51,705 nt of DNA from Bacteroidota bacterium (GTDB taxonomy: Bacteria; Bacteroidota; Bacteroidia; Flavobacteriales_D; Crocinitomicaceae), in contig CANCJF010000004.1 of NCBI GenBank assembly GCA_947378245.1, forward strand, positions 1 through 51,705, given 5' to 3'. The first letter of the stretch is position 1. Every line of letters begins with the position of its first letter. Below are positions 2,992 through 49,085 of the stretch, one piece after another. Made by a program: the position numbers and the translations under genes. The notes under the pieces were generated by a model. It worked only from the letters and a program-made list of their open reading frames with translations, did no database searches and was not told the origin of the DNA.

Positions 2992-3867
2992 TTAATTTAA
3001 TCTCTTTAAAACCTCTTGTATAAAACCATCCATTCTAGAAAATGCAAACCATTTCTTACCTAAATCTTTCAATGAGGCTCCTAGATGATACAGTTTTAAA
3101 CCATCAATAATTAAAAATCGATCATGTATATTTTTAATTTCTAAAATCGACAAACCTGTATACTGTTCATTAAACTTCATTCTATCAACCTCAAGTTGTC
3201 TTGAAATCTTATTAGTATATATTTTAACTTTTGTGTTTAATTTTTTTTTCGAAAAACTAACCAAAGTAATGTCATCTACATAATTATCTATTAAAATAAT
3301 TTCACTGTTTGCCTCTCTAATAATTTCATTAATAAAAATATATGAGTCAAAAATTTGACCATTGTAAAAGATGCCTTGATGCTGTTCTAAATTATTATTT
3401 TCTAACGCATTAAATATTTCGTCAAATTTAATTTCTGATTCAAATTGTTTTTTTTCTAGATAATTAATCCTTTGATCTAATTGTTGATTCATATTCAACA
3501 TTTTTCTCATTTGAATGAATGCATTAATTATTTGAATACTTATTTTAATTGCAATTTCACTTCTTAGAATTGCGGATAACATTGCAACACCGTGTTCTGT
3601 AAATACATATGGATTGCTTGATGAATGTTTTATATTCTTGAACCGGTCGCAATTTGCGACTAGTTCGATTCTTTCATTTGGTGTAAGTTGAAAATGATAA
3701 CCTTCAGGAAATCTTTGTGCATTTCGTTTTACTTGTTCATTTAATCTTTTGGTTTCAATTTGAAATAATTCTGCTAAATCTCTATCGACAATTACTTGTA
3801 AGTTTCTTATTGTAATTATCTTATTTTGAATTGAATGAATTTCTATTTCATTAATATTTTGTTCCAT
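2992..3867 (-). CDS. ORF6N domain protein with a C-terminal PLD-like region
   Basis: The N-terminal ~115 residues match the ORF6N domain, a DNA-binding module common in phage antirepressor-like proteins: IITIRNLQVIVDRDLAELF, then RFPEGYHFQLT and YVFTEHGVAMLSAILRS. A helical linker follows (about 120-155). The C-terminal part resembles a phospholipase D-like domain with one HxR-type motif (HDRFLIIDG) and the YHLGASLKDLGKKWFAF segment seen in many ORF6N proteins of bacteria. The 291 residues are intact. It is a single gene between kynU and hemL, with no phage genes beside it. Its role is unknown; defence or stress-linked regulation is plausible but not shown. Confidence 0.75.
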   Translation of the reverse strand: MEQNINEIEIHSIQNKIITIRNLQVIVDRDLAELFQIETKRLNEQVKRNAQRFPEGYHFQLTPNERIELVANCDRFKNIKHSSSNPYVFTEHGVAMLSAILRSEIAIKISIQIINAFIQMRKMLNMNQQLDQRINYLEKKQFESEIKFDEIFNALENNNLEQHQGIFYNGQIFDSYIFINEIIREANSEIILIDNYVDDITLVSFSKKKLNTKVKIYTNKISRQLEVDRMKFNEQYTGLSILEIKNIHDRFLIIDGLKLYHLGASLKDLGKKWFAFSRMDGFIQEVLKRLN

Positions 3868-3975
3868 AAATTTGATAATATTAAAATTACACTACATATT
3901 AAGTTAGTAAATAATATCATTTTCATCCAATATAAAACACTAAATTTACACCCACAATTTCAAATCAACTATCCT

Positions 3976-5265
3976 ATGAAAACAACAACTTCCGAAGCCT
4001 TATTTGCAACTGCAAAAAATTATTTTCCTGGTGGTGTAAATTCCCCAGTACGTGCTTTTAAATCGGTGGATGGATCGCCGTTGTTTATCAAAAAAGGAGC
4101 TGGTTGCCGTATTTGGGATGAAGATGATAATGAATTTGTGGATTTCTGTTGTAGCTGGGGGCCACTGATTTTAGGACATAATCACCCTGCTGTATACGAA
4201 AAAGTGGTTGCTACGATGCAAAATGGTACTAGTTTTGGTGCCCCAACACGTTTGGAAAATGAATTAGCAGAATTAATCCTTTCTCGCAACCCATTTATTG
4301 AAAAATTACGTTTTGTGAGTTCTGGTACAGAAGCGGTGATGTCGGCATTGCGTTTGGCACGTGGATATACCGGAAAAGATAAAGTTATCAAATTTGAAGG
4401 GTGTTACCACGGACATACAGATGCGATGTTGGTAAAAGCAGGAAGCGGTTTGATCACATTTGGGGCTTCATCAAGTGCGGGTGTTCCTGAAAGTTTCGCA
4501 CAAGAAACAATCGTTCTTCCATTAAATGATATTGAAGCATTAAAAACGTGTGTTGCAACCTATAAAAACGAAATTGCGTGTGCGATTATCGAACCAATTC
4601 CAGCAAATAATGGGTTGTTATTACAAGAAAAAACGTTCTTACTAGCCTTACGCCAAATTTGTACAGAAAACGGAATTTTATTATTCTTTGATGAAGTAAT
4701 CTCTGGTTTCAGGGTTGCTTTTTCAGGTGCTGCTGAACATTATAGTATCAAACCAGACATTGTTACATACGGTAAAATCATCGGTGGTGGTTTACCAGTA
4801 GGTGCGTATGGAGCAAGTAAAGAAATTATGGCGCGCATTTCTCCTGATGGAGATGTCTATCAAGCTGGAACATTATCAGGAAATCCAGTTGCAATGGCAG
4901 CAGGAATTGCACAATTAACAGAATGTGCTAAACCAGGTTTCTACGAGGAATTAGAAAAACGTACAGTAGATTTTATAGCACCAATCAATGCACACGCGAA
5001 AGCAAAAAATTACGAATTTGAAATTCATACTATTGGATCTATCTTTTGGTTGTCATTTGCAGGAAATAAAACCATTCGTCGTGCAGATGAGATCAATCCA
5101 GATATGACAGGATTCAAACATTTACACCACGCTTTATTGGAAGTTGGGGTGTATTTAGGTCCAAGTGGATATGAAGTAGGTTTTGTTTCACAAGCACATA
5201 CTCCTGAGATTTTAGCAGAAGTTGCTGTGAAATTTTGCCAAGCATTAGATGTGATTTACGGGTAG
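3976..5265 (+). CDS. hemL: Glutamate-1-semialdehyde 2,1-aminomutase
   Basis: PLP enzyme that converts glutamate-1-semialdehyde to 5-aminolevulinate, the tetrapyrrole precursor in the C5 pathway. The start is set at the ATG at 3976, giving 430 residues, because the preceding in-frame sequence is AT-rich and not conserved in character, while PGGVNSPVRAF (18-28) is the family's N-terminal signature. Other motifs are SSGTEA (115-120), EGCYHGHTDA (141-150), FFDEVISGFR (237-246) and the PLP lysine in TYGKIIGGGLPVG (K267). It is monocistronic. It supplies heme, which the heme oxygenase at 48309-48902 would consume, but there is no regulatory link in the sequence. Confidence 0.96.
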   Translation: MKTTTSEALFATAKNYFPGGVNSPVRAFKSVDGSPLFIKKGAGCRIWDEDDNEFVDFCCSWGPLILGHNHPAVYEKVVATMQNGTSFGAPTRLENELAELILSRNPFIEKLRFVSSGTEAVMSALRLARGYTGKDKVIKFEGCYHGHTDAMLVKAGSGLITFGASSSAGVPESFAQETIVLPLNDIEALKTCVATYKNEIACAIIEPIPANNGLLLQEKTFLLALRQICTENGILLFFDEVISGFRVAFSGAAEHYSIKPDIVTYGKIIGGGLPVGAYGASKEIMARISPDGDVYQAGTLSGNPVAMAAGIAQLTECAKPGFYEELEKRTVDFIAPINAHAKAKNYEFEIHTIGSIFWLSFAGNKTIRRADEINPDMTGFKHLHHALLEVGVYLGPSGYEVGFVSQAHTPEILAEVAVKFCQALDVIYG

Positions 5266-40634: not shown

Positions 40635-41453
40635 ATGATTACAAACGTAGATTTAATTGATGTTAAAGAATTAACAAGTATAGTTCAAGAGAAGTATAAT
40701 GAAGATTTTTCTGAATTTGCTACTACTGCGTATCGACGAAGAGTTGAAAAAGCTGGGAATGATTTGCGAATTCCTACAATGAGTGTTTTGTTGGAAAAAA
40801 TCAAAACCGATCCAGCGACTTTTCAAAAGTTTAAAAAACAATTAATTATCCCTACCACAGAGTTTTTTAGAGACCCTTCTTTTTGGAGAAAATTAAGAGA
40901 AGAAATAACAAAAAAACATAAAGCAACTGCTTTTAGAGTTTGGGTTGCTGGTTGCTCTTCAGGAGAAGAATTGGTTTCTCTTGCTATTTTATTGAAAGAA
41001 TTAGATATTTACGATAATAGTAAAATACTCGCGACTGAAATAACCGACCAAGTTTTTGCGGATATTAAAATGGGGAATTTTGAGGCTAGAAGTATCGAAA
41101 CAGGAGAAAGTAACTATGAGCGTTTTGAAGGTAAAAAGAAGTTTGCTGATTACCTTAAAACTTCAAATGGTATTACAACTATTGATACGTCATTGCTTTC
41201 TAATGTCACTTTCCAAGCTTCATCAGTCGATCTATCGGAAGTTACAGGAAAATTTGATTTAATCCTTTGCCGTAACGTTTTCATCTATTGCAATCTTAAT
41301 TTGCAAGATAAAATGATTAAAAGCTTTGAACAGCGTTTATTCCCATCTGGATTATTCGCTATCGGAGTGAAAGAATCCTTAAATTCTTCTCGTTACAAAA
41401 ATTCTTTTTTAGTGGTTTCGGAAGAAGAAAATATTTTCAAAAGCAAAATGTAA
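40635..41453 (+). CDS. CheR-type protein-glutamate methyltransferase
   Basis: A 272-residue CheR homologue. The N-terminal helical domain (about 1-75) precedes the SAM-binding domain: TEFFRDPSFW, then VWVAGCSSGEELVSLAILL (SAM motif I; the usual EEPYS reads EELVS here), and FDLILCRNVFIYCN. It should methylate glutamates of a chemoreceptor-like protein. The next gene is a HAMP-GAF-PAS protein with glutamate/glutamine-rich coiled coils, an obvious candidate substrate. No cheB, cheA or cheW is in the window. A -7-like TACCTTTT lies at 40613-40620. Confidence 0.88.
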   Translation: MITNVDLIDVKELTSIVQEKYNEDFSEFATTAYRRRVEKAGNDLRIPTMSVLLEKIKTDPATFQKFKKQLIIPTTEFFRDPSFWRKLREEITKKHKATAFRVWVAGCSSGEELVSLAILLKELDIYDNSKILATEITDQVFADIKMGNFEARSIETGESNYERFEGKKKFADYLKTSNGITTIDTSLLSNVTFQASSVDLSEVTGKFDLILCRNVFIYCNLNLQDKMIKSFEQRLFPSGLFAIGVKESLNSSRYKNSFLVVSEEENIFKSKM

Positions 41454-41565: not shown

Positions 41566-43773
41566 ATGTTTAAAAATATCAACACTAAATTAAATCGTAA
41601 GTTCTCTGTTGTTTTTGGAGTGATAACGATTACCGTTTCTACCTCTTATTTGCTTAATTTTTGGTTTAATAGTACGTTAAAAAGCGATGCTGTTGTAACG
41701 GAATTAGCTGCTCAAAATAAGATATCTGCTCAAAAAATGGAGATGCAATTAACAAAGTTGTACTATGCAAACGAGGAAGAGAGTATTGAAACATTAAAAA
41801 ATGAAATTCAGGAGACTTCCATTTCTTTTCGTAAGAATTTAGCAGTCATAAAATTAGGTGGTGATTATTACGATGAAGAAGAAAAAGTAGTTGTCAAACC
41901 AGCGATAGAAACTACCTTGAAAAATGAAATTTCAGAAATTGAGTCTGTTTTTGGTGGTTTAATGCAAAAAGTAAACATCATCATAGATCAATCTAAATAT
42001 GTTCGATTAAAAGCTTCTGATACACTTAAAACATCGAAGGTTCGATTGATTAATCCTGTTTTTGATGAAACTTTTACGAAGTTGAATATTTATTTAAAAA
42101 ATAATGATTTAATTGCTGACAATCAGGATTTACTTAACATTTTAAGTAAAAAATCAAAAGAAGGTAAAAAGTTTTTCGTGGAATTAATGATTTTCTTGTT
42201 GATTACAAATGTGTCTTTGATATTCTTAACTTATTTATTCTTAAGAAGAAATTTAAAACCAATAGAAAGTATTACAGATTATGTAACTCGTTTGTCGGAT
42301 GGAGAATTACCAAATGATATCCACACGAAGTCAAAAGATGAAATCAATGAGATTGCATTGGCAGTAAATAAGTTGGGGTCAAATATCAATGCAGCTAGTT
42401 CATTTGCGGCAAGTATTGGAAGTGGAAATTTGGAAACAGACATTGTCGTTTTTAACAATCACGGAAAATTGTCTGAATCCTTGCGTTCAATGCGAGATAG
42501 TTTGGTTAGTGTAGCCGATGAAGAAGCAAAAAGAAATTGGGCTACAGAGGGATTTGCAAAATTTGTAGACATCATCCGATCTACAGATAATATCGAAGAG
42601 TTTTATAATAATATTTTAGGGAATTTAATTCGTTATTTAAAAGTAAATCAGGGCTACCTGTACATTGTCAATGATCAAAATACGGTGGAGCCATTTATGG
42701 AAGTTCAGGCAGTGTACGCGTATGGGAAGAAGAAATACTTAGAGGACAAAAAGACCGCTCATTATAAAGAGGGATTAATAGGTCAAGCATGGTTTGATAA
42801 AGAAGCTTTATATTTTACGGAAATTCCAGATAATTATGTCTATATAACTTCTGGTGTTGGTGAATCGTTGCCAAAAGCTTTATTAATTGTTCCACTCGTA
42901 ATTAATGAAGTAGTGGTAGGTGCTATCGAGATCGCTTCCTTTAAAGAACTACACCAATACGAAATTGATTTTGTATTTAAATTAGGAGAAACAATTGCTG
43001 GCGCAATACAGAATGTAAAAGTAAGCGAACGAACACGAAAATTGTTAACTGAATCCCAAGAACATACGGAACAAATGCGCGCTCAAGAGGAAGAGATTCG
43101 TCAAAACATGGAGGAGATGCAAGCGACCCAAGAAGAAATGGAACGTGCACAACGTGCGATGAAACAAGCGTTGGATTCAGCTAAAATTAAAGAACAAGAA
43201 GCAATCGCTATTCAAGAAGATTTTGAACACCAAAAAAACAGAATTCAAGCGGAATTTGACGTGCAATTAGCAATCATCAATGAAACAGCAATTGTTTCTA
43301 AAACAGATTTGCGAGGATATATTACGTATGTGAATGATATGTTTTGCGAAGTTGCTCAATATACACGGGAGGAATTAATTGGTCAAAATCACAATATTGT
43401 TCGTCACCCAGATATGCCTGCAGCTGCTTTTGAAGATGTTTGGAGAACAATTAGTTCTGGAAAAATTTGGAAAGGTCAAGTAAAGAACAAGAAGAAAGAC
43501 GGCTCTTATTATTGGGTTCAAGCAACAATCTCTCCAATTATCGGTGAAAACGGTAAACCTGTTGAATATATGGCGGTACGTTATTTAATTACGGATATGA
43601 AAGACCAAGAAGTTTCAAATATCCAACTTATCGAAACAATGCGTGCACAAGAAGAAGAAATTAAACAAAATTTAGAGGAAATTCAAACTACGACTGAAAA
43701 ATTGGAAGCAGTAATCAAAGACTATAAAGAAAGAGAAGAAAAATTACTACAAGAATTAAAAAACAAGGGGTAG
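41566..43773 (+). CDS. Membrane HAMP-GAF-PAS sensor without a known output domain
   Basis: A 735-residue inner-membrane protein. TM1 about 13-34, a helical periplasmic domain (35-203), TM2 about 204-226, HAMP (227-305), GAF (335-485), a long coiled coil (490-570), an Aer-like PAS domain (568-680, with QNHNIVRHPDMPAAAFEDVW) and a final coiled coil (684-732). The sequence MRAQEEEIRQNMEEMQATQ occurs in the first coiled coil and nearly again (MRAQEEEIKQNLEEIQTT) in the last. There is no MCP signalling tip and no kinase domain. Beside cheR, the Glu/Gln-rich coils may be methylated. Ligand and partner are unknown. Confidence 0.8.
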   Translation: MFKNINTKLNRKFSVVFGVITITVSTSYLLNFWFNSTLKSDAVVTELAAQNKISAQKMEMQLTKLYYANEEESIETLKNEIQETSISFRKNLAVIKLGGDYYDEEEKVVVKPAIETTLKNEISEIESVFGGLMQKVNIIIDQSKYVRLKASDTLKTSKVRLINPVFDETFTKLNIYLKNNDLIADNQDLLNILSKKSKEGKKFFVELMIFLLITNVSLIFLTYLFLRRNLKPIESITDYVTRLSDGELPNDIHTKSKDEINEIALAVNKLGSNINAASSFAASIGSGNLETDIVVFNNHGKLSESLRSMRDSLVSVADEEAKRNWATEGFAKFVDIIRSTDNIEEFYNNILGNLIRYLKVNQGYLYIVNDQNTVEPFMEVQAVYAYGKKKYLEDKKTAHYKEGLIGQAWFDKEALYFTEIPDNYVYITSGVGESLPKALLIVPLVINEVVVGAIEIASFKELHQYEIDFVFKLGETIAGAIQNVKVSERTRKLLTESQEHTEQMRAQEEEIRQNMEEMQATQEEMERAQRAMKQALDSAKIKEQEAIAIQEDFEHQKNRIQAEFDVQLAIINETAIVSKTDLRGYITYVNDMFCEVAQYTREELIGQNHNIVRHPDMPAAAFEDVWRTISSGKIWKGQVKNKKKDGSYYWVQATISPIIGENGKPVEYMAVRYLITDMKDQEVSNIQLIETMRAQEEEIKQNLEEIQTTTEKLEAVIKDYKEREEKLLQELKNKG

Positions 43774-44084: not shown

Positions 44085-45497
44085 TTATATCTTCACACTC
44101 AACGTAAAATAATAGGCATTCGTTGAATGGTTAAATTCTAATTTCCCTCCCAAATATTCTACTAATTTCTCACTGATCGGAAGACCTAATCCAAAGGTGT
44201 CCACTCCGGAGAGGGATGGGTTTGTGGAGGTATAAGTCGGATGGGTTATTGCTGAATGCTCTTTTTGGATGCTTTTCACTTCAAAATACAGAATACTATT
44301 GTTTATTTGACTACGCATACTCGATACAGAAATTAGTATTTTACTATCTTTTGCAATTAATTTTAAGGTACTACTCAGTAAATTATTAAGTATAATTGAA
44401 ATTTTTACTGCGTCAATGTTGATTTCAGCTGGTAAATCTTTCTCTACCTCGAAATCTAAAAATACATTTTTTGATATGGCATGAAAATAATGCGAAGCCA
44501 AAACTTCTTGGATTAAATCGACCAAGTTTGTCGTATTCACAGTTGTTGACTCTTGGTATTCAATTAATCTTTCATCATTTAACGCTTCATCGATTAAGAT
44601 ATTGATACTTTGACATTGATGTTTTAAGGTGTTTAATTCAATGCGTTGTTCTCCTGTTAAAGTAGAAATTACTTCTGGTGAGGAAATAGATGAAATGATT
44701 TTATATAAAGGAAATATGATTTCAGAAGAAAAATGGTTGATGAACGTGTTTTTTAAATCTAAATTTCGCTCGATAATTTTCTTTTCTTTTTTGATGATTT
44801 CATTTTCTATTTGTGAACTGATATCGGTAATGAAAATAAGAACAGAATGGGTTGAAGCATCTACCTCTTTTAATTTTGTAAGTTGAACCAATCCACGCTT
44901 TACACTATTTATATCAAAAACATGTTCAAATTGTAAATGTTGTGCTTCAGATAAGTAAAAATTATCGATTTTGGCACTTAGTTCTATATCAAAAATACGA
45001 TAAGAAGCTAAAGTGTCAATCGAATCATCGGGTAACTCAAAAAAACGATTAAAGGAAGAATTGTATGTCTCGATAGTACGTTTTAATGGCTCAAACACAC
45101 AAAATGAAATCGAAGTAGTTTGAAATATATCCCTAAACAATAGATTTTTAGTGAATTGTTTAGTTTCGTTTTCAAAAATGGTATGAATACCCAAAGAAAT
45201 AGCATCTAAATCATCTTCTATTTCTTCATTTACTAAGGTAGAAGCAACGGATTGTCCGTCAATTCTATGGGTGACTTGTTTTAGTATAAATTGTTGTTTT
45301 TGTAGCGTCTTTAAATGAGCTTCATACAAAAGATTTGCTTCTTTTTCTAATTCAATAATCACGTCTTCCTCGGAAGTTAGTGTTGGACAGGAAGAATTGG
45401 ACATACGTTTTAATAAAGTTAAGACGTTTGTCAATTTTGGATTTCCTAAGTCATAGGAAACGAATTGTTCCGTAGTGAATTTATTAGTAAGCTTCAT
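44085..45497 (-). CDS. Degenerate PAS-histidine kinase (probable pseudokinase)
   Basis: A 470-residue soluble protein: N-terminal helical part (1-115), a PAS-like domain (about 120-230), a dimerisation helix region (about 240-305) and an HATPase-like domain (about 325-470). The phosphoacceptor box reads INHFSSEIIFPLY, with serine (S258) where SHE normally has histidine. The N box reads ILNNLLSSTLK, with the second asparagine lost. The DxGxG motif (G1) cannot be found, but the G2 loop DTFGLGLPISEKLVEYLGG is kept. It probably cannot autophosphorylate and may act as a binding or regulatory partner. It is divergent from the bilin/B12 operon and shares its promoter region. Confidence 0.75.
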   Translation of the reverse strand: MKLTNKFTTEQFVSYDLGNPKLTNVLTLLKRMSNSSCPTLTSEEDVIIELEKEANLLYEAHLKTLQKQQFILKQVTHRIDGQSVASTLVNEEIEDDLDAISLGIHTIFENETKQFTKNLLFRDIFQTTSISFCVFEPLKRTIETYNSSFNRFFELPDDSIDTLASYRIFDIELSAKIDNFYLSEAQHLQFEHVFDINSVKRGLVQLTKLKEVDASTHSVLIFITDISSQIENEIIKKEKKIIERNLDLKNTFINHFSSEIIFPLYKIISSISSPEVISTLTGEQRIELNTLKHQCQSINILIDEALNDERLIEYQESTTVNTTNLVDLIQEVLASHYFHAISKNVFLDFEVEKDLPAEINIDAVKISIILNNLLSSTLKLIAKDSKILISVSSMRSQINNSILYFEVKSIQKEHSAITHPTYTSTNPSLSGVDTFGLGLPISEKLVEYLGGKLEFNHSTNAYYFTLSVKI

Positions 45498-45510
45498 AAT
45501 GGGTAAATTA

Positions 45511-45549
45511 TACGTATCAAATATACGTATTATTTTGATTGATTACGTA
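45511..45549. promoter_or_regulatory. Three TACGTA palindromes in the divergent promoter region
   Basis: TACGTA occurs at 45511-45516, 45524-45529 and 45544-45549, each followed by T, between the degenerate kinase and the bilin/B12 operon. A fourth copy lies at 49074-49079, just before the large histidine kinase gene. They may be binding sites for a shared regulator. Confidence 0.45.
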
Positions 45550-45626
45550 TTAATTTTTGTAATTTTATTCTTTAGTATCTTATTTATCAGTATTTTTACT
45601 AAATAGTTAATCATTACCTTTTTTAA

Positions 45627-46322
45627 ATGGAATTTGCCTTAGTTTGTAACGAAAAAGGAATCGTGCAAGAGATCACTTTAGACACCTCTTCCCAATTAAC
45701 TATTGGCAACTCTTTATTTCCCTTCGTGGATTCATTTAGCATCCCGAAAATTCTTACTTTTTATCAAGAAATTGAGAATAAAGGAATTGCACTTAACTGG
45801 GAAATAAATTTTTGTTTTGAAGACATGCTTATAGCACTAGTAGTGTCTGGTATAAAAAGAAATAAAGAAATTCAAATTTTTGGATATTCTGCACACGACA
45901 ACAATCAAAAAATCATCGATGAATTAAGTGCAATTAATAATTCACAGAGTTTATTACTTCGTTCATCCATCAAAGAAAACATAAAGCACGCTGTACAGAG
46001 AGATCCAGAAAGTGATAAGGCATTTATTTTAAGCTTGCAAAATGAAAATAGATTATTAAAAAACCAAGTGATTTCTTCGAGTCGTATCTTTGAAAAACAA
46101 TTAAACGAACAAGAGCATAAAATCAAATTATTACTTAAAAAGGATAACGAATTAAAGGAAGAACTTTTGATTATATACGATGAAATTAAATGTTCCACAG
46201 AATTAATAATTAAGGATTACCGACAAGCGGTATTTACGAAGCAAGGAGAATTAGAAGAAATACAATCCCAACTTTTTGAGTTGAATTTACTAATCGAAAA
46301 GTGGGGTATAATTAAGGAATAA
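45627..46322 (+). CDS. PAS-like sensory domain with coiled-coil tail, no output domain
   Basis: A 231-residue soluble protein, first gene of the operon. Residues 1-90 resemble the N-terminal PAS-like domain of some sensor kinases (NEKGIVQEITLDTS, then FSIPKILTFYQEIENKG, LNWEINF and LVVSGI). From about 95 to 225 it is helical with a strong coiled coil (residues 135-190, rich in leucine, lysine and glutamate). It has no kinase, cyclase or DNA-binding domain, so it probably works through partner proteins such as the next gene's product. A near-consensus -7 sequence (TACCTTTT, 45615-45622) is only four bases from the ATG, suggesting a very short leader. Family assignment is tentative. Confidence 0.65.
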   Translation: MEFALVCNEKGIVQEITLDTSSQLTIGNSLFPFVDSFSIPKILTFYQEIENKGIALNWEINFCFEDMLIALVVSGIKRNKEIQIFGYSAHDNNQKIIDELSAINNSQSLLLRSSIKENIKHAVQRDPESDKAFILSLQNENRLLKNQVISSSRIFEKQLNEQEHKIKLLLKKDNELKEELLIIYDEIKCSTELIIKDYRQAVFTKQGELEEIQSQLFELNLLIEKWGIIKE

Positions 46323-46323
46323 C

Positions 46324-47592
46324 ATGCCGAATCAATTAAATCAATTATTAAACCATAAAATAAAAACAGAATATTCTGTGAAGAATAATTGGGATTTAAC
46401 ATTAGAACTAAATCTCTTACTTACTTTTTTCTCACATCAGTCCAAGCAATTGCCAGTATTTATTTATTGGTTGGAGAATTATTTTGAAGCAGTAAATTTA
46501 CCTTTTTCTCTGCTTGAAAATTGTTTGTTAGAAATTGAACCAAAACATTTTTTGGTTCATAGCGACTTAAAAGAGAAGCTAAAAGTAAATAACAAAATAG
46601 AAGAAATAGGGCTTTGTACCGACTTGCACATTGAACTTTTTCAAACCATTGAGAAACATTCTAAGCCTGAATACAGAAGTTATATTTATAATGACGCGGA
46701 AAAACATTTAGAATTTTTAAAACAATCGATCGAAACGGATAGTATTATTTTATTTACGGAATACATCGCTTGGGCAAAAACAATGTTAAACGCTTTGCAC
46801 ATTGACACAAGTACCTTAATTCGCTTTTTGGTCACTTTACGTACTGTTTTTCATGTAAATAATCAGAAAAAAGAAGTAGCGTTTTTGGATCGTGGTATCC
46901 AAATGTTATTAGATGGAAATGTCGTTTCAGCAACTTCTGAAATCGCGTTTACCATTACTGAAGAATCCAAAAAATACTTAGAGCTTCTCCTTCTAAAAGA
47001 ACGAAATTTGGCTAAGAATTACATACTTGAGTTAGCGGATGGAGGAATGGATATTCGTGAAATATTCCTTGATGTTTTTCAAGCGACCCAATATGAATTA
47101 GGTAGATTGTGGGAATTGAATCGTATTACCATTGCACAAGAACACTACTGTACAGCTGCAACGCAAACCTTCATGGCAATGCTTACCGCACGTATTGTTC
47201 CAGAAAAATTAATTGGTAAAAAAGTGATTGCTACCTGTGTAGGTACTGAACAACATGAATTAGGGATACGAATTGTAAATGATTTCCTAGAAATGGAAGG
47301 TTGGGATACGTATTACTTGGGTGCAAATGCGCCGATGGAAGCCATTATCCTTGCCATTAAAGATAACCAACCAGATTTATTAGCACTATCGGTTACATTG
47401 ACACCACATGTTAAAAATGTGATTGAAATCATTCAAAAAGTGAAAAATATTTTCCCAACCATTAAAATATTAGTTGGTGGTTATCCTTTTTTAAGAGATA
47501 ATTCATTAGCAGAAAAAATTGGAGCAGATGGCGTCGCTTTAGATGCAAAACAAGCGCCTATAATTGCCTTAAAATTAGTGCAGAATTCTTAA
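46324..47592 (+). CDS. Cobalamin-binding photoreceptor-like protein
   Basis: A 422-residue protein starting one base after the previous stop. The N-terminal ~190 residues are all-helical and of unknown family (HLEFLKQSIETDSIILFTEY). The B12 cap helix bundle follows (about 193-290) and carries W263 with E273 and H274: the Wx9EH signature of CarH-type adenosylcobalamin photoreceptors. The Rossmann B12 domain (298-422) has the lower-ligand motif EQHELG (H311), then S356 exactly 41 residues after that glycine, and GG at 385-386, matching ExHxxG-x41-S...GG. There is no MerR DNA-binding domain, so the output must be by protein contact, probably with operon or kinase partners. Confidence 0.82.
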   Translation: MPNQLNQLLNHKIKTEYSVKNNWDLTLELNLLLTFFSHQSKQLPVFIYWLENYFEAVNLPFSLLENCLLEIEPKHFLVHSDLKEKLKVNNKIEEIGLCTDLHIELFQTIEKHSKPEYRSYIYNDAEKHLEFLKQSIETDSIILFTEYIAWAKTMLNALHIDTSTLIRFLVTLRTVFHVNNQKKEVAFLDRGIQMLLDGNVVSATSEIAFTITEESKKYLELLLLKERNLAKNYILELADGGMDIREIFLDVFQATQYELGRLWELNRITIAQEHYCTAATQTFMAMLTARIVPEKLIGKKVIATCVGTEQHELGIRIVNDFLEMEGWDTYYLGANAPMEAIILAIKDNQPDLLALSVTLTPHVKNVIEIIQKVKNIFPTIKILVGGYPFLRDNSLAEKIGADGVALDAKQAPIIALKLVQNS

Positions 47593-47610
47593 TTTTTTTC
47601 TTTCTAACTA

Positions 47611-48312
47611 GTGAAAAAAGTATTTGATTTTGTGCTAGACTCAATCTTCGAGCCATCCGAGGTCGCATTCCAGTGGAGAGAAGAAAAAAGAGAAGAGCAA
47701 TACCGTAACTACACCCTTGTTCAAGAAAAAAAGGTAATAGTTGTCACAAGTAGAGGTTGGGTAAGTAAAGATGGAAATGCATGCATGCGCTTCGCGCGCT
47801 TTCAAAACGAGCAAATCGACATTACAACGCTTATCATTTTCCCTACAAACGACACATCACTTTTTCCAATTTTTGTGGTAGAACTCGTGTTGGTGATGGA
47901 TAAAATTCATCGTTGTATTGTAGATGTGGAGCCCGTCACTTTGCTCAGCAAACCATTAATAGATACCTATTTTTCTTCTTTATACACGAAAAACCAAGAC
48001 CTTTTAGAACAATTAAATGACCGACCTGACTGGTTTACCGACATTCAATCGCCTTACGCTATTTACGCGACCTGTAATGCTTCGGAGGTGCATAAAGTGG
48101 AGACAATTGTAGATTCGTATTTCTCTATGTTTATGCTAGAATATATAAACGGTCAAAAATTACCAGTTTTTGAACAGGTCAAGGATCATGTTTCTGTTGC
48201 TGAATATAAAAAACACCATGTTGCACATTCTCCAGCAAAATCAATTATCAAGGGCGAAAATGAATCTTGGTTGAATCAATTTTTAGAACATAACCATTTC
48301 AAAATTCTATGA
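47611..48312 (+). CDS. Probable ferredoxin-dependent bilin reductase homologue
   Basis: A 233-residue protein with a GTG start at 47611. It resembles the PcyA/HY2 family of bilin reductases in layout: a beta-sheet region with TTLIIFPTNDTSLFPIFVVE, then HRCIVDVEPV, whose aspartate (D105) corresponds to the catalytic aspartate in the family's LDYQP-like motif; a helical SPYAIYATCN stretch; and a C-terminal YKKHHVAHSPAKSIIKG motif like the family's Y...q..n.p...m. It overlaps the heme oxygenase gene by four bases (ATGA), so it would receive biliverdin directly. This pairing is the strongest support. Overall similarity is low, so the call is an inference. Confidence 0.65.
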   Translation: MKKVFDFVLDSIFEPSEVAFQWREEKREEQYRNYTLVQEKKVIVVTSRGWVSKDGNACMRFARFQNEQIDITTLIIFPTNDTSLFPIFVVELVLVMDKIHRCIVDVEPVTLLSKPLIDTYFSSLYTKNQDLLEQLNDRPDWFTDIQSPYAIYATCNASEVHKVETIVDSYFSMFMLEYINGQKLPVFEQVKDHVSVAEYKKHHVAHSPAKSIIKGENESWLNQFLEHNHFKIL

Positions 48313-48902
48313 AGTTATCTGAAAAGTTAAAAATAGCCACACAAAATGCACACAAAGAAATTGAGCAGTCTCATTACTTTAAACGACTTCTATCTCCCGA
48401 TTTAACAGTCGAGGAATATGTGCATATTTTGTGTTTATGGAAGACATTCCTTACCCCAATCGAAGCATCTTGGCAAAAACATGCGGAATCCAATTTGATT
48501 TTTTCAACCATAAATCAAAGAGGTAAAACCTACCGTTTACAATTGGACATAGATAATTTAGGAAAATTTTACCATCTTGCGAATTCGAGTGGGGCTGGCA
48601 AAAAGTTGCTTGCAAATGACTTCGATGTACAGAATCCATTGAGTTTAATTTCCTCTTTATACGTTATCGAAGGTTCCACTATGGGAGCAATGCATATTGT
48701 AAAACAGTTAATGAAGGTTGATTTTTGTTCGGAGAACACGACCCATTTTTACACACATTATGGAGAGGAAACGATTGCGATGTGGCAAACGTGTAAAATG
48801 GAATTGGACCATTGGGGAGATGAAAACCCAAATCTTCACAATCAGGTGTGTGATGGAGCGGTTCAATGTTTTCAATCGCTTGGAAATCATTTTAATGGTT
48901 AG
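48309..48902 (+). CDS. Biliverdin-producing heme oxygenase
   Basis: A 197-residue heme oxygenase of the bacterial BphO/HO family, which opens heme to biliverdin, CO and iron. The proximal histidine is in ATQNAHKEIEQS (H15). The distal helix shows SLYVIEGSTMGAMHIVKQL, matching the family's YVxEGSxxGG region, although the second glycine of the usual pair is alanine. It is the last gene of the four-gene operon, coupled to the reductase gene. No hemophore, TonB heme receptor or bacteriophytochrome is near, so pigment synthesis is more likely than iron acquisition; that is an inference. Confidence 0.85.
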   Translation: MKLSEKLKIATQNAHKEIEQSHYFKRLLSPDLTVEEYVHILCLWKTFLTPIEASWQKHAESNLIFSTINQRGKTYRLQLDIDNLGKFYHLANSSGAGKKLLANDFDVQNPLSLISSLYVIEGSTMGAMHIVKQLMKVDFCSENTTHFYTHYGEETIAMWQTCKMELDHWGDENPNLHNQVCDGAVQCFQSLGNHFNG

Positions 48903-49037: not shown

Positions 49038-49085
49038 TAAAATTTAATTTTAATTATTTTTTTTGCACACAATTACGTATCTAAA

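Follow-up and report, generated by a model that had tools for sequence, protein, structure and literature searches.

A 51,705-base stretch of DNA from a Bacteroidota bacterium of the Crocinitomicaceae (GCA_947378245.1, contig CANCJF010000004.1, positions 1 to 51,705; hereafter the window) carries an operon of four genes which, with a probability that we put at roughly 70%, encodes a self-supplied photoreceptor using both cobalamin (B12) and a bilin. The genes code, in this order, for a PAS-like and coiled-coil protein, a photocobilin, a homologue of the ferredoxin-dependent bilin reductases (FDBR) and a heme oxygenase (Table 1). The analysis was wholly computational and dealt with gene order, folds, conserved residues, kinase loss and distribution. 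Its conclusion is supported by the facts that, among proteins of solved structure, those nearest to the B12 protein are photocobilins, that the chromophore residues of the B12 protein are kept, and that the heme oxygenase and the FDBR, each found once in the window genome, are both located in the operon. Besides, no phytochrome (PHY-domain) gene was found in the window genome (G000) or in the two related genomes carrying the operon, G101 and G116, thereby extending to whole genomes what an earlier reading of the window's letters (the sequence-only reading) had noticed.

The same reading had proposed that the four genes make up a single transcript, and the open reading frames (ORFs) agree with it: all lie on the forward strand and are separated by a 1-base gap, an 18-base gap and a 4-base overlap. 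The order is repeated, with 4-base overlaps, in the congeneric genome G116, whose PAS, B12 and FDBR proteins are 36%, 55% and 34% identical to those of the window, respectively. Because G116 carries the identical order, the four-gene arrangement is not due to chance. In addition, G101 (loci L002 and L039) holds a near-identical copy of the operon, in which the PAS and B12 proteins are each one residue apart from their window counterparts and the base changes fall mostly at third codon positions.

The photocobilin and its predicted chromophore pockets

The B12 protein had been described from the sequence as a CarH-type cobalamin protein. The light-sensor-type B12 domain implied by this name was found, but its PDB relatives, a globin profile and the key residues indicate that the protein is not just CarH-like: it is a photocobilin, in which a photoglobin domain is fused to the B12 domain. 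Pfam detects B12-binding (84.2 bits) and B12-binding_2 (41.3 bits), and the NCBIfam CarH score is 32, for a cut-off of 400. The nearest PDB relatives are the Saccharothrix and Acidimicrobiaceae photocobilins (8j2w/8j2x/8j2y; E 1.7e-21), and the B12 part of an AlphaFold2 (AF2) model built from 19 relatives (pLDDT 86.8) superimposes on 8j2w with a Z of 26.9 over 207 residues (root-mean-square deviation 2.0). Within this four-helix plus Rossmann domain, the pocket for adenosylcobalamin (AdoCbl) is kept, as W263, E273-H274 and H311 are mapped by alignment onto Trp61 and Glu71-His72 of the upper pocket and the lower-ligand His108 of the photocobilin SasPcob. The roles of these residues, and of SasPcob Asp270 and Trp296, in holding AdoCbl and biliverdin have been reported (PMC10979010). 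CarH and LitR share the same fold and the Trp, Glu-His and His residues, whereas in the window protein a globin domain stands in place of their MerR DNA-binding domain, none being present among the Pfam and NCBIfam matches. Regarding the SignatureFinder motifs for photocobilins (GxxW, EH, GxxH and GxxxP; PMC11796333), GRLW, EH and GANAP are seen, while the GxxH position reads TEQH, with the Gly one place earlier. The window genome also encodes a cobalamin adenosyltransferase.

As far as the bilin is concerned, 8j2w/8j2x are detected through their biliverdin domain by a globin profile including the window sequence (E ~7e-5), and so, more weakly, are allophycocyanins. The window globin domain is matched to that of other photocobilins by hhalign (98.6%), and 8 of the 19 aligned Bacteroidota photocobilins match Pfam Phycobilisome. 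D124 and W150 are the counterparts of SasPcob Asp270 and Trp296, which points to a fused globin-like bilin-binding domain. The domain order, globin first and B12 last, is the reverse of that of SasPcob; one of the photocobilin groups predicted in the literature likewise ends with the AdoCbl domain (PMC10979010). Being a fused photocobilin, the B12 protein is therefore the likely bilin receiver within the operon and, by analogy with the solved proteins, would bind AdoCbl and biliverdin and respond to light.

The globin domain is preceded by an N-terminal extension, predicted as helical in the AF2 model, which the photocobilins of this genus possess and the 17 others in the alignment lack. Compared by hhalign with the globin profile, it scores 25.9 (P 6.5e-4), the top of 40 column shuffles being 21.5, and it could tentatively be viewed as a degenerate second photoglobin copy. 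The weak resemblance centres on the Trp helix.

Many B12-binding proteins are not photoreceptors, and the functions of the bilin-binding globins named BBAG are stated in the literature to be unknown. In the light of this, the B12-globin protein could be imagined to sense cobalamin or redox/oxygen conditions instead of light, the heme oxygenase and the FDBR then recycling heme iron or detoxifying bilins in the same stress response. Such a role is deemed unlikely, given the full photoreceptor-type AdoCbl pocket (Trp, Glu-His, His), the bilin-pocket Asp and Trp, and the presence of dedicated bilin synthesis in genomes where phytochrome was not found.

Bilin enzymes and nature of the chromophore

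That the third gene encodes a bilin reductase homologue, as the sequence-only reading had held, is upheld by two agreeing lines of evidence. The Fe_bilin_red profile matches the product with 39.8 bits (cut-off 31), and a structure model of moderate confidence (pLDDT 57) yields 35 Foldseek matches in the PDB at E<=0.001, all of them PcyA, PebS, PebB, phytochromobilin synthase or RCCR (E 1e-5 to 6e-4), save two chains of large motor complexes. The product thus falls inside the bilin reductase fold; Pfam gave no match on the G116 copy alone. The heme oxygenase was likewise correctly named, Heme_oxygenase (PF01126) reaching 52.9 bits for a curated cut-off of 23.

Several observations nevertheless weigh against a self-supplied B12-bilin photoreceptor. 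In both the window and the G116 FDBRs, His88 of PcyA is replaced by Thr (T73 of the window protein) and Asp105 by Glu (E91), and Glu76 has no counterpart in the window FDBR, so that none of the three residues typical of PcyA proper is retained. Furthermore, despite co-expression of an active FDBR, it was biliverdin and not the reduced bilin that the BBAG-2 globins bound (PMC10151467). On the side of the receiver, SasPcob His137 is not conserved in the window photocobilin, and the globin domain was assigned by sequence profile, the structure comparison having covered the B12 part. The Cys found three residues before the key Asp in seven other Bacteroidota photocobilins and in Azospirillum is absent from the window and G116 proteins, and a reduced bilin could therefore not attach covalently at that position; covalent attachment is thereby disfavoured, and the bilin would probably be bound non-covalently. 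Finally, of the 19 other genomes with photocobilin-like genes, 18 yielded no PF01126 heme oxygenase, and bilin binding may therefore not be general in the photocobilin family.

An alternative would be that plain biliverdin is the chromophore of an otherwise ordinary biliverdin photocobilin system, the FDBR homologue handling or scavenging the bilin, either as a chaperone or by removal of excess biliverdin. The changed active-site residues fit this view, as do the BBAG-2 globins, which took biliverdin though their FDBR made phytochromobilin (PMC10151467), and the non-covalently held biliverdin of the closest solved photocobilin (PMC10979010). However, pre-PcyA proteins in which the PcyA residue set is likewise incomplete do work as reductases, and the window and G116 FDBRs, while only 34% identical, retain the very same Thr and Glu. 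The biliverdin alternative is consequently a serious possibility, yet not the one to be expected.

Comparison with the described pre-PcyA lineages helps to situate the reductase. In the pre-2 clusters of Myxococcales (Rockwell et al. 2023, PMC10151467), an FDBR is found, as in the window, beside a B12-binding protein and a bilin-binding globin, and sometimes a heme oxygenase. There, a separate gene encodes the globin, which bears an RGMC motif, and the FDBR displays Asn at the His88 position and keeps Asp105, whereas the window, in the phylum Bacteroidota, combines a globin fused to the B12 domain, devoid of the Cys, with a Thr/Glu reductase. The pre-3 lineage carries Thr at the His88 position together with Asp105, and clusters with an Fe-S protein and two V4R proteins. 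The window FDBR has this Thr, but Glu replaces Asp, and no V4R or Fe-S gene was found among the genes scanned beside the operon. The Thr/Glu pair has been described for none of the three described pre-PcyA lineages, from which the window FDBR is set apart by residues and published descriptions. Bacteriophytochrome systems also co-encode a heme oxygenase with a bilin-using photoreceptor; in the window genome, where the PHY domain was not found, a globin fold beside B12 would carry the bilin instead.

The gene order is conserved, albeit narrowly, the FDBR having been found in just three genomes of one genus by searches with the protein or a two-row alignment, which covered overlapping samples at the level of the family (240 genomes), the order (399) and the phylum (390); the Pfam FDBR profile missed the window's own genome. 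A weak match in G134 was discarded, since it is not a real FDBR locus; another match, in G567, is a 98-residue stretch within a 730-residue frame. Neither the FDBR nor the PAS protein had a plasmid match, the FDBR had no viral-contig match, and PF01126 was not found in five congeners without the operon. The heme oxygenase gene itself differs at 33 of 594 bases between the window (48309-48902) and G101 (L039 13664-14257), compared to only 4-7 differences in each of the other three operon genes, as if a tract had been exchanged. In G116, its frame (L009 3462-4046) breaks off at a run of A, through either a real frameshift or an assembly error. A glutamate-1-semialdehyde aminotransferase-like gene, recognized by eye and corresponding to an early step of heme synthesis, lies at 3835-5265, 40 kb from the operon.

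Proposed signalling partners and output, and known systems

The first gene of the operon had been described as encoding a lone PAS-like protein. The product is indeed PAS-like, but hhalign and the alignment of the H-box region identify it as the N-terminal part of the kinase that usually accompanies photocobilins. Pfam gives no match, while hhalign relates its N-terminal ~120 residues to the sensor domain of the partner kinases (99.2% over residues 3-119) and phmmer matches residues 1-125 to these kinases, the C-terminal part giving none. The protein, which has the same size in G116, is devoid of a kinase domain and is thus a kinase-less form of the usual partner. At 14 Bacteroidota loci where the photocobilin gene is intact, the next gene on the same strand encodes a PAS-histidine kinase of ~400 residues, mostly overlapping the photocobilin gene or at most 15 bases away; this also holds for two further Bacteroidota loci, in which the photocobilin ORF is broken or partial, and for Azospirillum brasilense. 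Since the stand-alone photocobilins of Bacteroidota have such a regular kinase partner, the latter is their likely output. A phylogenetic tree unites the two FDBR-bearing photocobilins in a single clade (99/99) and separates them from the kinase-linked ones. Photocobilin-like proteins with the same domain order are also encoded on Azospirillum and Skermanella megaplasmids (L040-L043), with an adjoining kinase gene in Azospirillum.

The catalytic part of the partner kinases resembles, with an hhalign probability of 99.4%, the product of the divergent gene at 44085-45497. Its H-box phospho-acceptor His is replaced by Ser (Lys in G116), compared to AHDL or SHDL in 15 aligned partner kinases, arguing that it is not an active histidine kinase but probably a pseudokinase. 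The gene keeps its position in G101 and G116. Accordingly, the operon itself stands as delimited earlier, but the unit of four genes has to be widened to this divergent gene and to a larger signalling island.

One may also wonder whether a kinase has been lost, of which the PAS-coiled-coil protein and the pseudokinase would be the decaying remains; the operon would then be left without live signalling output. The H-box His is lost in both divergent proteins (window and G116), the ATP site has decayed further in the window copy, and the heme oxygenase frame of G116 is apparently shifted. Nevertheless, both proteins hold similar length and position across the two genomes despite low identity, and the PAS and B12 proteins of the window and G101 are separated by a single residue each, base changes being mostly at third codon positions. 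Decay is therefore considered improbable.

If the operon does encode a self-supplied B12-bilin photoreceptor, the heme oxygenase would open heme to yield biliverdin, which the FDBR homologue would probably reduce, and the photocobilin would hold the bilin and AdoCbl side by side. By analogy with the solved photocobilin, light would release the adenosyl group, the bilin would widen the response to red, and the dimer would change. Protein contact could then carry this change to the PAS-coiled-coil partner, since in vitro isolated photocobilins are reported to influence a partner enzyme through contact (PMC10979010). Because neither kinase relative can autophosphorylate in the usual way, the PAS-coiled-coil and divergent proteins would most likely work as adaptors modulating other signalling proteins, plausible targets being the CheR, HAMP-GAF-PAS and NarL-type two-component gene products of the island. 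We infer the light response, the identity of the bilin and the direction of signalling, whereas light-driven adenosyl loss, wavelength extension and contact control are borrowed from photocobilin biochemistry. The more specific proposal, that AdoCbl is paired with a reduced phytobilin made by a new, Thr/Glu-type FDBR lineage within the operon, and that signalling proceeds via the kinase-less PAS partner and the pseudokinase into a chemosensory/NarL-type island, is tentative and less likely than not.

The sequence-only reading knew of no described system joining these parts, a view that has to be abandoned: clusters of an FDBR, a B12-binding protein and a globin, with or without a heme oxygenase, have been known since 2023 (PMC10151467), and photocobilins since 2024 (Zhang et al. 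2024, PMC10979010). The photocobilins of the latter study, SasPcob and AbPcob, share with the window protein the fusion of a B12 photoreceptor domain to a bilin-binding globin, the key AdoCbl residues and the bilin-pocket Asp and Trp. The window protein differs from them by having a heme oxygenase and an FDBR in its operon, a ~94-residue N-terminal extension and a kinase-less PAS partner, and the terms heme oxygenase, operon, bilin reductase and "Bacteroid-" do not occur in the main text of that paper. As far as the literature searched shows, what is new is the association, in Bacteroidota, of a fused photocobilin, a heme oxygenase and an FDBR in one operon with a kinase-less partner and a pseudokinase, as well as the regular pairing of photocobilin and kinase in this phylum. 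Photoglobins, however, were reportedly described by Schneider in 2022, and the pairing may already feature in that paper.

According to a published proposal, the bilin pathway and the phycobiliproteins of cyanobacteria derive from heterotrophs, namely from their pre-PcyA reductases and bilin-binding globins, the present function of these globins being stated as unknown. Here, the enzymes, a bilin-plus-B12 receiver and a signalling partner are joined in one four-gene unit, small enough for reconstitution in E. coli, and the purpose of heterotrophic bilin reductases therefore becomes directly testable. The locus, kept by a freshwater bacterium, is thus a test case for the use of bilin-making enzymes by non-photosynthetic bacteria.

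Neighbouring signalling genes and TACGTA sites

In both G101 and G116, the operon is set among genes for CheR, HAMP-GAF-PAS proteins, a HisKA_3 kinase and LuxR/NarL-type regulators; in G101, the HisKA_3 kinase gene is followed by two LuxR/NarL-type response regulators and then CheR. HAMP-GAF-PAS chemoreceptor-like matches number 13-36 in the three operon-bearing genomes, compared to 0-9 in the five congeners without the operon.

Table 1. Features of the operon and its surroundings in the window (aa, amino acids).
Feature	Position	Strand	Evidence or remark
CheR methyltransferase	40635..41453	+	Pfam, 112.7 bits
HAMP-GAF-PAS chemoreceptor-like protein	41566..43773	+	Pfam; homologues beside the G116 operon
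Divergent histidine-kinase-like protein, 470 aa	44085..45497	-	hhalign, H-box alignment
Divergent promoter region	45498..45626		Three TACGTA palindromes, at 45511, 45524 and 45544
PAS-like and coiled-coil protein, 231 aa	45627..46322	+	ORF
Photocobilin, 422 aa (extension, aa 1-94; photoglobin/phycobiliprotein-like domain, ~aa 95-210; B12 domain, ~aa 211-422)	46324..47592	+	ORF, PDB relatives, AF2 model
N-terminal extension of the photocobilin	46324..46605	+	Alignment, hhalign, helices in model
FDBR homologue, 233 aa, GTG start	47611..48312	+	Pfam, Foldseek, alignments
Heme oxygenase, 197 aa	48309..48902	+	PF01126
TACGTA site, 12 bases before the HisKA_3 kinase gene	49074..49079		Likewise in G101
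PAS-PAS-HisKA_3 sensor kinase, cut short by the contig end	49086..51704	+	Pfam

The palindrome TACGTA occurs 25 times in the whole window for 8.7 copies expected, and the three copies of the divergent promoter fall within 39 bases, the G116 counterpart also having three. In a 19.7 kb stretch of G116, of which 9% is intergenic, six of the seven copies lie upstream of island transcription units (binomial ~3e-6), while in G101 the site precedes the operon, the HisKA_3 kinase gene, CheR and two of the three response-regulator genes. These sites may reflect a shared regulator, perhaps a LuxR-type protein. Outside the window, the copies upstream of island transcription units lie within L038 2128-12095 and L039 8398-18578.

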